This document shows positions 10,057 through 16,444 of a DNA stretch of 22,594 nt, in pieces. Made by a program: the position numbers and the translations under genes. The notes under the pieces are model-generated. The model searched no databases, was not told the DNA's origin, and saw only the letters and a program-made list of their open reading frames with translations. The first letter of the stretch is position 1. Each line of letters starts with the position of its first letter. The stretch is taken from the IMG/VR virus record IMGVR_UViG_3300027704_000178, positions 1 through 22,594 of that record; one strand, written 5' to 3'. The DNA is from a virus.

Positions 10057-11886
10057 TTATGAACTAAGATTGGCTATTGTAAAGTTTGCTATTGTTCCAG
10101 TCCCATCATCATTAAAAGCATTAGATAAACCTGCTGTTTTTGATTTTAAGTTATTGCCGACAACAAGTGTATCAGTAGATCCGGTTAAAATCTCTATGCC
10201 ATATTGGTTACTATTTGATCCTGATAAGTCAATTTGATTCCCGCTAATTACAGAATTATTACTTGTGCCTAGAAGTAGGATCCCTGGTGTGGTATCAGCT
10301 CCGCCAAGATCATTCCATGCAATTGTGTTGTTGCATATTTTAGCAGGAGTATTGCCTGGTGGTCTTATTCCGCCAGCAAGGTTGCAATTAGTTACTTCTG
10401 AAACGGAGAATACACAATTTTCTGGGAGGGTAGCGGAGGATCTAGGGCCAACGGTTGTACTATCAAGACTAGCAACGCCTTTAACGGATGCGGAAGTAGT
10501 GTTTGAGTTTTTAATTAACAAGCCACTAACTATTGTAGTTGTACTTGTAGTCGTGTCTTCAACCTCTTCAAGGTTAGTGCCACCGCATCCATCAAACGTG
10601 CTTGATGAAATATTTATGTTTAGCCCGTGGGTGATATGTATTCCTCTAGTACAATTATTATAAGTATTGGATGATACTGTAGCTGTTTCAATGTTAAGAA
10701 GAGCTGCTGTATCGACATCTGTAATAGTATTTCCTGATATTGTTGTGTTTTTCACTTGAGCTGGGGTGGTACTTGAGAACTTAATACCGTAAGAAACTGT
10801 ATCGCTTGCTCCTGCTGTAGCAGACATATTTGTTATAACATTTCCGACAATAGAGGTATCTTTTATATTGTTTACACCAGTTTGAATAACACCATATTGG
10901 CAATTAGTGAAATTATTTGAGCTAGCAACAACATTGCGGTGAGATCCAGTAGTGTTTGAACCTATCTTAAATGCAGCTCCACCGAAATCGCTAACATTGT
11001 TATTTGATACTGTTATATTTTTAGAGTCAAAGTTACCGGACGAAGATGTGTGCTCTAAATGAATACCATGCCCACCAGGAATTGTTGACTTCGTCCCAGG
11101 AGTGTTTGACCCTCTAACCTGGCAACCCTCTACCGTAACGTTTGATGATCCATGCTGCACAGTTATAGCTCCACCACCCGAGCCCACAGATGGGACGTTT
11201 GTACACTTCAACTTAGACATTATTCCATTATCTACAAATGTAAAGTTAAATGCCTCATCTCCTATATCTGTAGCATCGCAATTTACGATCCCAGCATTAA
11301 TAACATATTGCATAGATATAGCGTGACTCTCTTCTGAACTGGCGTGAAGCACTGGGTCGTCATCAAAAAAGCCAATATCTCTAAAATAAATATCTTGCAC
11401 ATACTTTGTGTAATCGTTAGCAGGAGAAGGAATGGTCGATGGAATAACTTTAAACGCAATATACTGGGTACTTACTAATTCTCCGTCTCCATTAAATATA
11501 ATTTTAGTTATATTAGGACCCTGGCCTTTAATCATTAAGCCTTTGTGAGTCTGTGCTGGCTTGATTTCAATTCCGCCAGAAATCCCAAATTTACCTGGGC
11601 CAAACTCAACAATTGCTGGCAAGTTTGCAAGAGCAGTAGTCAAAGCTCCAAGAATAATGGATCTATCATCAGCAGCACCATCTGCTGTAGCTTGAACTAA
11701 GCTCAACAGACCGTCAGAAGTGCTTACAGATATTTGGCCCCACTTTAATGATGGAGCAGAACCCATATAAACCCTTAAAGATGAGCTTGTTACGCTTTTA
11801 TTTGTATTAGCGTGATCAACAGCAATGACTTCAGTGCCATCTAGTGTTGTATGGTTAGGCCATGTGGTTACTCTTGAAGTGGTCAT
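10057..11886 (-). CDS. Tailspike with right-handed beta-helix (pectate-lyase-like)
   Basis: The 609-residue protein has an N-terminal particle-binding segment (1-60), then a linker WGQISVSTSDGLLSLVQATADGAADDRSIILGALTTA and PAIVEFGPGKFGISGGIEI, the classic entry of phage beta-helix spikes. From about 130 to 590 there are repeated coils of the type ITVSNNNVSDFGGAAFKIGSN, VVASSNNFTNCQYGVIQTG and TTISGNTITDVD, with the N-ladder and short strands of a parallel beta-helix. Such trimers bind, and often cleave, host capsule or O-antigen. I cannot pick out catalytic residues, so enzymatic activity is not shown. It lies just downstream of the lysis genes and starts in a TAATG overlap. Confidence 0.88.
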   Translation of the reverse strand: MTTSRVTTWPNHTTLDGTEVIAVDHANTNKSVTSSSLRVYMGSAPSLKWGQISVSTSDGLLSLVQATADGAADDRSIILGALTTALANLPAIVEFGPGKFGISGGIEIKPAQTHKGLMIKGQGPNITKIIFNGDGELVSTQYIAFKVIPSTIPSPANDYTKYVQDIYFRDIGFFDDDPVLHASSEESHAISMQYVINAGIVNCDATDIGDEAFNFTFVDNGIMSKLKCTNVPSVGSGGGAITVQHGSSNVTVEGCQVRGSNTPGTKSTIPGGHGIHLEHTSSSGNFDSKNITVSNNNVSDFGGAAFKIGSNTTGSHRNVVASSNNFTNCQYGVIQTGVNNIKDTSIVGNVITNMSATAGASDTVSYGIKFSSTTPAQVKNTTISGNTITDVDTAALLNIETATVSSNTYNNCTRGIHITHGLNINISSSTFDGCGGTNLEEVEDTTTSTTTIVSGLLIKNSNTTSASVKGVASLDSTTVGPRSSATLPENCVFSVSEVTNCNLAGGIRPPGNTPAKICNNTIAWNDLGGADTTPGILLLGTSNNSVISGNQIDLSGSNSNQYGIEILTGSTDTLVVGNNLKSKTAGLSNAFNDDGTGTIANFTIANLSS

Positions 11887-13104: not shown

Positions 13105-13366
13105 ATTCTTGATCAAAGTGATCTCGGTCTTGAAGGATATGTCCGGCGAAAGCCTCCCTCACCGCACAAGACTTAAAGCGCAAAAAGATACCCCACGGCG
13201 CATCTGAGTTCTAAAGACTGAACAGGGGGTGGACTACACGCTAGTAGAAGGCAGTCGAGTTTGCATGAAGCGTTAATTGCAGACTATCCAAAGTCCTAAA
13301 TGCGACTAAGGGTAAAAGGAACCAAGTTTAGATCTGTTATAGGTCTTTACTGGGGTTCTTTTATCC
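13105..13366 (+). ncRNA. Candidate structured noncoding RNA, plus strand
   Basis: No gene fits here, but a series of stems does. GGTCTTG 13126-13132 pairs with CAAGACT 13167-13173 and encloses a GGC-GAAA-GCC hairpin (13145-13154). TACCCC 13189-13194 pairs with GGGGTG 13226-13231, enclosing a GTTC/GAAC hairpin (13208-13223). CTAC/GTAG (13234-13247) has CGCT in its loop, able to pair with AGCG 13177-13180. AGTTTGCA 13258-13265 pairs with TGCAGACT 13278-13285. A 20-bp rod with bulges spans 13311-13366. Four pairs are G-U on the plus strand and would be C-A mismatches on the minus strand, so the RNA is plus-sense. I do not recognise the class. It lies between the late promoter and the ACCWGGT cluster. 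Confidence 0.5.
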
Positions 13367-13864
13367 TTCAGAACCTAATACTACCTTGCACTTCTGCACC
13401 TAGTTACGTCTATTCCCTTCTAAATCAGCTACTTACCTACAAATTCCTACATACCTAGTCCCAAATCTGGTACTGCTAAGACCTAAATTCGCATACAACT
13501 ATATGATATTGCTGGCTTTTTAGCTGATCAGGTTCCAAAAATGGCTCCGGTATATGGGTTGGATATCCTAGTACAACCAGTGGCCCGAAGTTGGGGGTGG
13601 GGGGTGCTGCCTTTCTGGCTGGCTATGCGGTCCTATGCCTGGTTAAATAATTTGGTGGGGTGATGTGTATGTAGCTAGGGATATCCATTACCAGGTTATC
13701 CATACCCTTCTCAGTAGTCATCAATATCAGTCGATACCAGGTGCAGTAAAGGTTTAAAGACTATGCCCTTATCTGTCATAAGTATCACCAGGTGAGGCCA
13801 TCCAGGTTAACCAGGTGAGTTGATCCAGGTCCAGGCATCCAGGCACAACACAAAATCCAAACAT
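13367..13864. other. Gene-free stretch with motif cluster
   Basis: No gene is supported here. It contains the 20-base match to the replication gene (13458-13477), a G-run GGGGGTGGGGGG at 13593-13604, two GGATATCC palindromes (13561-13568, 13679-13686) and most of the dense ACCWGGT/CCWGG cluster. This would be a natural place for a replication origin, but that is inference. Confidence 0.6.
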
Positions 13865-13889
13865 AAAAAAAGGGACCGATTAAAGTCCC
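13865..13889 (-). terminator. Intrinsic terminator of the four-gene cassette
   Basis: Read on the minus strand, GGGAC (13889-13885), an 8-base loop and GTCCC (13876-13872) are followed by seven Ts (13871-13865). It lies 26 bases after the last gene of the cassette and would separate it from the gene-free region and the late promoter. Confidence 0.75.
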
Positions 13890-13914
13890 AAGGTTAACGC
13901 CAGTTGCAACCTGG

Positions 13915-14061
13915 TTAAGAGTTTAGCCATTCATCAAAAGTTTTGACGTACTCGCCAGTACCTGCCAGGCAATCACAATAAATTGTATACCTGGTCCAGA
14001 GATCGCCGCGTTGGTTTTGGTCGTTCCAGTCACTGTATAAAGCTGAGTCTAATTCAGTCAT
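13915..14061 (-). CDS. Unknown 48-residue protein
   Basis: The gene starts at ATG 14061, which overlaps the preceding gene's TGA by one base (TGATG), and ends at TAA 13917-13915, 26 bases before the terminator. The protein begins MTELDSALYSDWNDQNQRGD and continues with LWTRYTIYCDCLAGTGEYVKTF to a DEWLNS end. It is acidic and rich in Trp, Tyr and Asp, including a Cys-Asp-Cys. No family is recognised. Tight coupling and its fit before the terminator support it as the last gene of the cassette. A small acidic early phage protein could be a host-takeover factor or inhibitor, which is only a guess. Confidence 0.65.
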   Translation of the reverse strand: MTELDSALYSDWNDQNQRGDLWTRYTIYCDCLAGTGEYVKTFDEWLNS

Positions 14062-14258
14062 CACTTACACTCCAGGTCGCAGTCAATGTTCATTTTAAAT
14101 AGTTTTAATAACTCATCTGAGCTGGTCAAGGTACTAGGGAAAAAAGTTATTGATCCGTGCTCAGCTGAATCAGTTTCGAACTCGATAGTCACCCAGTCCG
14201 CTTCAGTACTTGAAGTGGTTAACTTTGTAACGTGGTGAATGAGGGTTGTTGTTGTCAT
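14061..14258 (-). CDS. Unknown 65-residue protein
   Basis: The start is ATG 14258, overlapping the upstream stop (TAATG) and preceded by AAGGA. A longer in-frame start inside the previous gene is less likely. The protein starts MTTTTLIHHVTKLTTSSTEA, then has a strand-rich core (DWVTIEFETDSAEHGSITFFP) and a C-terminal helix ending NIDCDLECK. It is acidic overall. No homologous family is recognised. It is translated as the third of four coupled genes. Confidence 0.65.
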   Translation of the reverse strand: MTTTTLIHHVTKLTTSSTEADWVTIEFETDSAEHGSITFFPSTLTSSDELLKLFKMNIDCDLECK

Positions 14259-14452
14259 TAGATGCTTTCCTTTTGAGTTTCGATAACCTGGTGACAAGTG
14301 TTAAGTGTAAAAATCATAGTGGCCATAGCCGCGTGCAATTGCTCGGGACTACCTCCGTAAGTGTCGACCAGGAATGCCGATAGTTCACTGAAGCTTTCTT
14401 GAGTAACAAAAAAGCCTTGTTTTGGAACAGGGTTCTCCTTCAATGTAATCAC
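14258..14452 (-). CDS. Unknown 64-residue protein (GTG start)
   Basis: Translation begins at GTG 14452, overlapping the preceding TGA by 3 bases (GTGA arrangement), with an AGGAG about 11 bases upstream. The protein begins MITLKENPVPKQGFFVTQES and is mostly helical after residue 20 (FSELSAFLVDTYGGSPEQLHAAMATMIFTLNTCHQVIETQ). It has no membrane segment or known motif. It is the second gene of the minus cassette. Confidence 0.6.
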   Translation of the reverse strand: MITLKENPVPKQGFFVTQESFSELSAFLVDTYGGSPEQLHAAMATMIFTLNTCHQVIETQKESI

Positions 14453-14739
14453 TTAATAGTTACTCCTAAGCGAGTTAATAGAAGCTGCTCAGCTTTAATG
14501 GCCTGGTCCAGGTCATCCTTTAATATAGTCGCTATATGGTTAATGTAGTCCTGATAATGATAATAATTTCGATGCACTGGCTCCATCTCAATCAAATAGT
14601 TAAGACTTGGATGATAACGGCTGTCAGCTAGCATACCCTCCTCATAATCAGTTAATGCCTTTAACCAGGTAGCCAATACCTTCGGTTTGTTGGCGTTCTT
14701 GCTATCCAGGTCGTACTGTATCTCTCTCACTATACTCAT
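14449..14739 (-). CDS. Unknown 96-residue protein, first gene of minus cassette
   Basis: The gene has a good GAGGAA site before ATG 14739 and is the first after a promoter with a perfect -10 (14780-14785). The protein begins MSIVREIQYDLDSKNANKPK and is helical throughout, with LATWLKALTDYEEGMLADSRYHPSLNYLIEM and a C-terminal IATILKDDLDQAIKAEQLLLTRLGV. It contains several Tyr and His residues (HRNYYHYQDY). No family is recognised. ACCWGGT motifs occur inside the gene. Confidence 0.7.
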   Translation of the reverse strand: MSIVREIQYDLDSKNANKPKVLATWLKALTDYEEGMLADSRYHPSLNYLIEMEPVHRNYYHYQDYINHIATILKDDLDQAIKAEQLLLTRLGVTIK

Positions 14740-14779
14740 GGTAATTCCTCATGGCGCGGCCAGAAGTAGCCGCACGGCC

Positions 14780-14809
14780 ATTATAACCAGGTTGAAAGCT
14801 AGCTTGCAA
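14780..14809 (-). promoter_or_regulatory. Promoter of the minus cassette, sharing its -35 with the opposite promoter
   Basis: On the minus strand TTGCAA (14809-14804) and a perfect TATAAT (14785-14780) are 18 bases apart. An ACCAGGT copy (14786-14792) and part of the palindrome AAGCTAGCTT (14796-14805) lie in the spacer, which are possible operator positions. Confidence 0.6.
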
Positions 14810-14832
14810 TAGTTATTTAATAGCTATATAGT
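14804..14832 (+). promoter_or_regulatory. Divergent promoter for the plus operon
   Basis: TTGCAA (14804-14809) and TATAGT (14827-14832) are 17 bases apart on the plus strand. TTGCAA is its own reverse complement, so the same hexamer serves both directions. The expected start is near 14839, at the tandem repeat. Confidence 0.55.
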
Positions 14833-14838
14833 CGCGGT

Positions 14839-14858
14839 TGTCATAACTTGTCATAACT
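14839..14858 (+). repeat. Tandem TGTCATAACT repeat at the predicted start site
   Basis: Two perfect head-to-tail copies of TGTCATAACT (14839-14848, 14849-14858) follow the plus promoter directly. Direct repeats of one helical turn at a start site are typical of regulator binding, but no regulator is identified. Confidence 0.6.
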
Positions 14859-14883
14859 TGAAATAGCCAGAGAGGGCCACAAA

Positions 14884-15555
14884 ATGAATTATTCTATCCA
14901 CAACCCAAGCGAAGGGAACAAAGTTAACGTTTATAAAACTTACAGTAATAAGAATACCTGCCCTAAGTCATGCCCCCTGGCGGGCAATGGATGCTATGCC
15001 GATAACTTCCACGTTAACCTGCACTGGTCCAAGGTATCCAGTGGCGAGCGCGGAACCGATTGGCAAGGTTTACTCGATAGCGTTAAAGCTTTACCTACTG
15101 GCGCACTATGGCGACACAATATAGCAGGCGATTTACGTGGAAAAGGCGAATACATCGACAATAAATCATTGCAACAGTTGACCCAGGCGAGCAAGTACAG
15201 AAAAAAGCAGGGTTTCACCTATACCCACTACAAACCTAACGCCAAAAACATCCAGGCACTAAAAAAAGCTAATGATAGCGGCTTTACTGTTAACTTAAGC
15301 TCCAACAATATAGCCCAAGCGGTAGAATACAAGAAACTAGGCTTGCCAGTCGTTACAGTTTTACCGATGGATGCACCTAACGTGCAAATTGTGGATGGTG
15401 TTAAAATTGTCGCTTGCCCAAGTGAAAAGAGCGACCGGGTAAAATGCGGAAACTGTGCGCATTCATTTTGCGCAGACTCAAAACGAGATTTTGTTGTGGG
15501 CTTTCGCGCGCATGGCACTAAGAAAAAGCAAGCTGACATAATAGCGAGAGGATAG
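14884..15555 (+). CDS. Cysteine-motif phage/plasmid protein (DUF7227-like)
   Basis: The 223-residue protein belongs to a widespread but uncharacterised phage and plasmid family. I recall it as DUF7227, but am not certain of the number. Seen in the sequence: N-terminal IHNPSEGNKVNVYKTYSNKN then C26-P-x2-C30-P-L-x4-C37-Y-A; a central LPTGALWRHNIAGDLRG and GFTYTHYKPN; NLSSNNIAQAVEY; LPVVTVLPMDAP; IVACPSE; and a second cysteine group C178, C188-x2-C191-x4-C196 followed by VVGFRAHGTKKKQADI. The two clusters suggest metal or Fe-S binding, and the strand pattern suggests a TIM-barrel-like fold. The function is unknown. It is the first gene after the divergent promoter. Confidence 0.8.
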   Translation: MNYSIHNPSEGNKVNVYKTYSNKNTCPKSCPLAGNGCYADNFHVNLHWSKVSSGERGTDWQGLLDSVKALPTGALWRHNIAGDLRGKGEYIDNKSLQQLTQASKYRKKQGFTYTHYKPNAKNIQALKKANDSGFTVNLSSNNIAQAVEYKKLGLPVVTVLPMDAPNVQIVDGVKIVACPSEKSDRVKCGNCAHSFCADSKRDFVVGFRAHGTKKKQADIIARG

Positions 15556-15559
15556 AAAA

Positions 15560-15874
15560 ATGCATCATTATGGAATTTTTGAATTAAGACACGAAGACGG
15601 CCAGGTATTTGAGACAATAGCGGCAAACTTTTTATCACGCGGCATAAAACACGCCTACAAAATAGCCGATACTTATGCAAGCGCCAAAACTGAGCAGCAT
15701 AAAGATCTAAATTTACACGGTTGCTGGCATATATACCACAATCACACAAACGAAGCGTTTAAGCCTAACCAACTGCGCGTTTATCGTGGAAGAATTGCCG
15801 GTACAGTTTCGCGCCAGGTGGTAACCAGGGAACAACTAACAGGAATTAAACCAGGAGGAACGAATGTTAAATAA
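15560..15874 (+). CDS. Unknown 104-residue protein
   Basis: The gene follows the cysteine-motif gene by 4 bases, with a GAGAGGA site before ATG 15560. The protein starts MHHYGIFELRHEDGQVFETI, includes a helix (NFLSRGIKHAYKIADTYASAKTEQHKD), a His-rich HGCWHIYHNHTNEAF and a basic C-terminus (RVYRGRIAGTVSRQVVTREQL). No family is recognised. The operon position suggests an accessory early role together with the gene before it. Confidence 0.68.
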   Translation: MHHYGIFELRHEDGQVFETIAANFLSRGIKHAYKIADTYASAKTEQHKDLNLHGCWHIYHNHTNEAFKPNQLRVYRGRIAGTVSRQVVTREQLTGIKPGGTNVK

Positions 15875-15938
15875 AGAAGACGTTTTTATGTTGATAGTGC
15901 TTTTGAGCTTGTTTTTAATCTTAGATAAGCTCATGTAA
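15864..15938 (+). CDS. 24-residue single-membrane-segment peptide
   Basis: ATG 15864 has an AGGAGG site 5 bases upstream and overlaps the end of the preceding gene by 11 bases. It ends at TAA 15936-15938, which overlaps the next start. The peptide begins MLNKEDVFMLIVLLSLFLIL and ends DKLM: a short charged head and a hydrophobic helix long enough to span the inner membrane. The ribosome site is among the best in the window, so translation is likely. Function unknown; small phage membrane peptides can block superinfection or modulate lysis. Confidence 0.65.
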   Translation: MLNKEDVFMLIVLLSLFLILDKLM

Positions 15939-16099
15939 TGGGCCAATTACTTTTTAGCCTGGTATTGATGCCGATAGTTTGGGGTTTAGTGTTTAAATAT
16001 TTAAGGAATCATAAAAAATGGCTTTTGTTTAAAGATATACTTTTAATCGGTTTAGCTTTAATAATATATGACTCATTAGACAAATTTTTTAACTTATAA
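15938..16099 (+). CDS. 53-residue protein with two membrane segments
   Basis: The start ATG 15938 overlaps the TAA of the 24-residue gene (TAATG) and the stop lies inside the following terminator. The sequence has a first membrane helix (LLFSLVLMPIVWGLVF, residues 4-19), a basic loop (KYLRNHKKW) and a second helix (ILLIGLALIIY), then DSLDKFFNL. The topology would place the basic loop in the cytoplasm. No family recognised. It is coupled to the peptide upstream, so the two may act as a pair in the inner membrane. Confidence 0.65.
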   Translation: MGQLLFSLVLMPIVWGLVFKYLRNHKKWLLFKDILLIGLALIIYDSLDKFFNL

Positions 16100-16121
16100 G
16101 GCCCTTAAATGGGCCTTTTTT
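16098..16121 (+). terminator. Intrinsic terminator of the plus operon
   Basis: AAGGCCC (16098-16104), loop TTAAAT and GGGCCTT (16111-16117) form a 7-bp stem running into six Ts (16116-16121). It overlaps the stop codon of the 53-residue gene. Confidence 0.85.
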
Positions 16122-16148
16122 ATGCCCTAGCACTTTGCCCAGGTTTAC

Positions 16149-16157
16149 TGATAGAAT
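16149..16157 (+). promoter_or_regulatory. Possible extended -10 promoter for the 76-residue gene
   Basis: TGATAGAAT is an extended -10 (TGN plus TAGAAT) 31 bases before the gene and just after the terminator. No good -35 is present, which extended -10 promoters tolerate. Confidence 0.35.
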
Positions 16158-16187
16158 CGAATACAGACAATTACAGGAGCCAATACA

Positions 16188-16418
16188 ATGTCTATAGAAG
16201 CAATAAACTGGCAAGACCTAAGCCATCGCGCAAGATCACTAATCTCGACAGATTGCGAACCTAATTATATCAGATCAATATTAGACCTTGCAGTATTGAC
16301 GTTTAGCGAAGATCAGATTGAGCAGATTGAAACTGCCCTGCATGCGGGCAATTCCGAAACTGTTAAAGGTGTTATTTATGATCAATTCATAGATTGCTTG
16401 TTTAATGACGTAGATTAG
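16188..16418 (+). CDS. Unknown 76-residue acidic protein
   Basis: The gene stands alone between a terminator and the convergent phosphoesterase gene. It starts at ATG 16188, 8 bases after AGGAG. The protein begins MSIEAINWQDLSHRARSLIS and is helical and acidic (LDLAVLTFSEDQIEQIETALHAGNSETVKGVIYDQFIDCLFNDVD). No family recognised. Its acidic helical build resembles small phage inhibitors or DNA-mimic type proteins, but this is not evidence of that function. Confidence 0.65.
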   Translation: MSIEAINWQDLSHRARSLISTDCEPNYIRSILDLAVLTFSEDQIEQIETALHAGNSETVKGVIYDQFIDCLFNDVD

Positions 16419-16419
16419 C

Positions 16420-16444
16420 AGCTACAATCGCTCAGTGGATCGCC
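16420..16444. repeat. 25-bp direct repeat, copy 1 (noncoding)
   Basis: Identical to 16500-16524 except at one base (C at 16431, T at 16511). It begins two bases after the stop of the plus gene. Read on the minus strand it reproduces the last codons of the phosphoesterase, the single difference being a synonymous Glu codon. Confidence 0.85.

Follow-up and report, generated by a model that had tools for sequence, protein, structure and literature searches.

Phages are known for the loss of restriction palindromes, and for CCWGG sites of the Dcm/EcoRII type avoidance is the rule. Dense clusters of a methylation-site palindrome are present in the pac site of phage P1 and in oriC of Escherichia coli, where copies of GATC lie within about 0.2 kb of noncoding DNA and are read by a methylation-sensing protein. 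A short site in many dispersed copies is also known from mycobacteriophages of the L5 type, the stoperators of which are asymmetric 13-mers found in intergenic DNA throughout the genome. In cyanobacteria, the palindrome HIP1 (GCGATCGC) is present far above expectation in coding as well as noncoding DNA; it is spread by substitution and maintained by selection, and in some strains alternate HIPs are accompanied by a matching methyltransferase (PMC4390886; PMC6604393).

The DNA analysed here, a virus record of 22.6 kb (the window), is strongly and locally enriched in CCWGG. As with HIP1, a palindrome is strongly over-represented with respect to composition, in coding and noncoding DNA and independent of codon use, and its copies arise by substitution and not by insertion of a repeat unit. 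Unlike HIP1, it takes up 2.5 kb of a phage of roughly 40 kb and not a whole genome, the motif is CCWGG and is centred on a cassette that encodes a DUF7227 protein, and a methyltransferase was not found in the phage. The P1 pac and oriC clusters share the crowding of methylation-site palindromes in a short noncoding segment; they consist of GATC, are about 0.2 kb long and have a known function, whereas CCWGG in the window is spread through genes. The recognition sequence is that of Dcm/EcoRII-type enzymes, which close relatives of the window phage avoid fully, so that the array is the reverse of the rule, a local excess. Many dispersed copies of a short site are also what the stoperators offer, but those of the window are palindromic, local and present inside genes. 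Literature searches did not turn up any phage described as having a local excess of CCWGG.

The window contains 57 CCWGG, whereas 24.75 were expected from dinucleotide shuffles (maximum of 100 shuffles, 38). A first-pass annotation had noted a twelvefold enrichment of the heptamer ACCWGGT at 13637-14792. Its counts for this segment were reproduced (20 CCWGG, nine ACCWGGT and five TCCAGGT/ACCTGGA, the last with a single copy in the rest of the window), but 37 and not approximately 27 CCWGG were found elsewhere. The heptamer, present 11 times in the window where 1.6 copies were expected, has 9 of its 11 copies in the segment; its enrichment was real, but its density there is about 70- to 80-fold that elsewhere, and it is the pentamer that is denser by a factor of about 10. 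Nor does the enrichment stop at 14792, since nine further CCWGG follow at 14976-16139 and give the zone a natural extent of 13637-16143 (29 sites in about 2.5 kb). Its densest part is a noncoding head of 0.42 kb (13637-14060) with 12 CCWGG, compared with a Markov-1 mean of 1.28 (maximum of 5 in 200). From this head the density drops from 28 per kb to 9.7, 6.9 and finally 1.6 per kb. The tightest sub-cluster (13787-13844, plus strand) has six CCAGG starting at 13788-13839 and includes a 21-bp imperfect direct repeat; the five copies reported at 6-14 base spacing were confirmed at 13802-13843. Over the array as a whole the spacing is irregular (6-349 bp), with R = 0.02-0.09 at periods 21 and 22, and helical phasing is absent. 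The flanks of CCAGG within 13637-14792 are asymmetric, with W before and Y after the pentamer.

The late genes of the window are oriented leftward and include those for the large terminase, a phrog_1216 portal protein and a holin. They are followed by a noncoding stretch, a small early-gene block and a leftward replication block that encodes an exonuclease, a DnaB-like helicase and an O-like initiator, the gene of the latter being 4-7 kb from the array. In many relatives DNA similarity ends at 13603 and returns near 16444, which delimits a mosaic early-gene cassette of 2.84 kb (13604-16444); one relative, G004, has 4.2 kb of different DNA in its place. The cassette holds 29 CCWGG versus 3.8 expected from its own dinucleotides, about eight times chance, whereas the remaining 19.75 kb of the window holds 28 versus 21.1 expected. 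The distribution is thus non-uniform and the over-representation not window-wide. No match to the cassette DNA was found in the phage and plasmid collections queried. Outside 13604-16444, CCSGG, CTGCAG and CAGCTG are all absent (7.4, 6.6 and 6.6 expected), so in this part of the window other restriction-type palindromes are avoided and CCWGG is not.

About half of the CCWGG sites of the cassette are noncoding. On the minus strand, two small ORFs without Pfam or PHROG match (14061-14297, with sites at 14072 and 14287, and 14258-14452, with sites at 14287 and 14368) are accompanied by a 96-aa ORF (14449-14739) that is conserved in the relatives G002 and L005 and has four sites compared with 1.34 in codon shuffles. 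They are followed by a promoter-like TTGCAA-18-TATAAT on the minus strand (14809-14780), in the spacer of which, adjoining the -10 box, an ACCAGGT is located at 14786-14792, as the first-pass annotation had observed; this CCAGG is retained in L005 and reads CCAGT in G002. On the plus strand lie the gene for the DUF7227 protein (PF23872, phrog_2554; 14884-15555, profile match E 1e-76), with three sites, and a 104-aa ORF (15560-15874), with four sites compared with 1.4 in codon shuffles. The final two sites, at 15958 and 16139 (15958-16143), are both retained in L005. In all, the coding DNA of the cassette contains 14 CCWGG versus 3.67 in shuffles that preserve protein and codon use (maximum of 9 in 2000). 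This rules out codon use as the cause of the excess, as had been argued from the presence of sites in both coding and noncoding DNA. Coding DNA outside the cassette is unremarkable, with 26 CCWGG compared with 20 in codon shuffles.

To the left of the cassette, a noncoding block (13121-13390, plus strand) is near-invariant across relatives whose genes differ by 10-25%. It has a fold z-score of -1.8 on the plus strand and a 13-bp hairpin at its end, gave no match in an Rfam search, and is probably a structured RNA or DNA element. The contig of G002 ends near 13.9-14.05 kb and many other contigs stop near 13.0-13.8 kb, which might reflect genome ends at the array but might also stem from assembly breaks that the highly conserved block at 13.1-13.4 kb can provoke.

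The close cassette family is represented by three available members, the window, L005 and G002, which in a three-way alignment are nearly equidistant (0.869, 0.843 and 0.860). Conservation of the motif in relatives was borne out in one of them and failed in the other. L005, 87-89% identical, shares 14556-16444 at 88.8% and has kept 12 of 12 aligned CCWGG. The G/C positions of ten sites are conserved in 40 of 40 cases between the window and L005, and those at third codon positions in 16 of 16, versus 93 of 156 in the background (p = 6e-4). In G002, the cassette of which is about 84-87% identical, 1 of 26 aligned CCWGG is kept, whereas most other NNWNN palindromes with useful counts are kept at about 40-100%. 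Every site of the three-way alignment is altered in G002. Most window sites align without gaps with near-match pentamers, of which seven are the single inner-base variants CTWGG/CCWAG and about ten differ at an outer base. Over its 38.9 kb, G002 has 41 CCWGG, about as many as expected, but the 8.6 kb that align with the cassette and right arm contain only 3. Since divergence in the cassette is similar to that elsewhere in the genome (11-13% between window and L005), the CCWGG excess has been retained in place, and recent import of the cassette is disfavoured.

The remark in the first-pass annotation that restriction would select against the motif holds for the relatives: G002 has lost 25 of the 26 sites and many more distant relatives have zero CCWGG in 10-20 kb. 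Among phages that share only the holin, most of the loci L026-L088 likewise have zero CCWGG in 8-20 kb, where 8-34 were expected, and avoidance is complete across several lineages. Retention in L005, loss in G002 and the CCWGG-free relatives therefore indicate pressure of either sign on the motif in this phage group. That selection acts both for and against a single methylation-type motif suggests that the pressure is host dependent.

Independent loci were gathered by searching with the DUF7227 protein. The family was picked on account of the window and many motifs were tested, and the strongest parts of this survey are the paired palindrome test and the independent result for L263. The latter, a phage-like contig from the genome bin of a marine bacterium, has the same gene order, a DUF7227 protein 41% identical and a helicase 33% identical to those of the window. 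In the same place as in the window it has 37 CCWGG versus 5.1 expected. The noncoding head accounts for 16 of them, compared with an expected mean of 1.8, and the DUF7227 block for 21, compared with 3.3; elsewhere the density is 2.3-2.9 per kb. As L263 does not contain a single ACCWGGT, the enriched unit is the pentamer CCWGG, and the heptamer, proposed as the unit in the first-pass annotation, was dropped. Other DUF7227 loci have palindromes of their own. In the L257 group, GGSCC and CAGCTG are crowded at DUF7227 (CAGCTG 11 times versus 0 in the other 11.8 kb). L181 has GCCGGC at nine coding sites versus 1.3 in codon shuffles and none in the other 4.5 kb, and local palindromes were also seen as GTTAAC (L204), CTATAG (L246) and CGCGCG (L217). 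At 10380-10860, downstream of the genes for DUF7227 and for an early protein of 361 aa, L257 has a dense noncoding array of GGCC/CAGCTG palindromes (CCCAGCTGGCC, GTGGGCCGTGGGCC). Two candidates, L184 (CAWTG) and L249 (CTAG), were discarded as short tandem repeats at contig ends, and clusters such as GCGC in L207 because they do not exceed the local dinucleotide expectation.

Over 33 dereplicated loci, the ratio of observed to expected six-base palindromes peaks at 0.78 at DUF7227 and is about 0.5 beyond 3 kb; such palindromes were less avoided near DUF7227 than far from it at 25 of 29 dereplicated loci (p = 1.2e-5). Loci in bacterial genomes showed a weaker trend (near above far in 16 of 24, p = 0.06), and iterated palindromes are scarce or absent in most cultured DUF7227 phages checked. 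DUF7227 is encoded by the first annotated gene of the podovirus P-SSP7, a cultured phage, and by an early-block gene of S-SRP01 located between those for terminase and RNA polymerase. Because of these positions, it may be the early region close to the terminus, and not the protein itself, to which palindrome crowding is tied. The DUF7227 protein of the window is predicted to form a barrel (model pLDDT 93.3), with C26, C30 and C37 near the N-terminus invariant and a second cysteine group present. The best fold matches of the model were radical-SAM enzymes (viperin, Z 6.9; EpeE, Z 6.8), and Foldseek alone returned no significant match. This likeness is a lead, as Z values below 8 may reflect the common barrel only.

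DNA-level selection on the CCWGG sites is well supported by these data, and the recurrence of the same motif in the distant L263, together with other palindromes at DUF7227 loci, suggests a DNA-level signal. Our tentative preference is for a local, phage-borne, highly iterated palindrome that is selected at the DNA level, most likely through a CCWGG-specific host enzyme. The zone would have come to fill the early DUF7227 cassette by base substitutions and not by repeat duplication, and would be kept by selection independent of codon use. The driver would likely be a host Dcm-type methyltransferase, or a matching restriction system, that recognizes CCWGG. In hosts of the window lineage many early-region sites would be advantageous by forming a dense methylation mark or an enzyme sink; in other hosts CCWGG would be selected away. 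The modification signal suggested in the first-pass annotation is thus a possibility. Both the host enzyme as reader of the sites and the benefit to the phage are what we infer. A host enzyme is the best guess because close relatives are under pressure of opposite sign and because the other motifs found enriched are likewise palindromes of the restriction/methylation type. A search of the window, G002, G004 and the other phage records covered revealed no methyltransferase of PF00145 (cytosine) or PF01555 (N6/N4), so any enzyme acting on CCWGG would have to be that of the host. Against a host enzyme, the pile-up in one cassette only is not explained by it, most of the cultured DUF7227 phages checked show little or none of the pattern, and the asymmetric W/Y flanks are a hint that a protein reads a longer site.

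That hint leads to the main rival, in which the sites are a binding array for a phage or host DNA-binding protein (repressor, partition, packaging or replication) that recognizes approximately WCCAGGY, with the highest density in the noncoding head and an overflow into neighbouring genes. The W-CCAGG-Y preference within 13637-14792, the peak density in noncoding DNA, the copy inside the promoter-like spacer and the retention of every aligned site in L005 would all fit. However, phasing and fixed spacing are both lacking, G002 has nearly identical genes but no array, L263 has the pentamer and not the flanks, and the motif differs among other DUF7227 phages, and we regard a binding array as possible but rather improbable. 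Weaker is the proposal that a horizontally circulating early cassette retains the CCWGG-rich signature of its donor pool as a compositional relic without present function. The array is coextensive with the mosaic cassette, palindromes are generally less avoided around DUF7227, and three temperate-looking phages (L108, L109 and L110) are enriched in CCWGG 3-4 fold over most of the genome. They are also enriched in GATC over 2-fold, apart from a tail-gene block of about 5 kb (3500-8000 in L110) with almost none. Yet the cassettes of the window and L005 differ by 11-13% like the rest of their genomes and have kept all aligned sites and their third-position bases, and the density of sites is above that of every CCWGG-rich phage in this analysis, which makes a relic unlikely.

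A local mutation or repair bias was judged a little more doubtful still. Here, near-matches in a cassette prone to recombination would be ratcheted into CCWGG, either by methylation-directed mismatch repair or when recombination heteroduplexes undergo Vsr-like very-short-patch repair. In favour are the nature of the cassette as a mosaic exchange point, the seven CTWGG/CCWAG counterparts in G002 and the spread of HIP1 by substitution, for which a ratchet of this kind has been put forward (PMC4390886; PMC6604393). But Vsr alters the inner T only, whereas the outer positions are equally conserved and about ten G002 sites are changed there. A Vsr/VSP footprint, confined to the inner C:G pair and with CTWGG depleted, was not seen, CTWGG being present 4 times in the cassette compared with 4.4 expected. 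As outer and inner bases are both conserved, a Vsr-type process alone cannot explain the conservation. An iteron-type replication origin, as suggested in the first-pass annotation, is very improbable: the cluster of six copies at 13788-13843 with its 21-bp repeat and the O-like initiator encoded by the phage speak for it, but the spacing is unphased and without a regular repeat of about 20-22 bp, sites run 2 kb into genes, the initiator gene is distant, GC skew shows no clear switch at the array and G002 lacks the sites.

In a broader reading, which we consider unlikely, early DUF7227 regions of phages would be selected restriction-site-rich islands, each phage having its own palindrome and fewer palindromes elsewhere in its genome, and would serve as a sink or mark for host restriction-modification enzymes. 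If true, this would be a new counter-defence or epigenetic element built of DNA sites and not of protein. Apart from this reading, a phage region that gains and keeps palindromes, as the window does with a motif shared by the distant L263 and replaced by others in further phages, runs counter to the textbook rule, and the DUF7227 loci provide a short list for testing the purpose of highly iterated palindromes, a question that has stood since the description of HIP1 in 1995.
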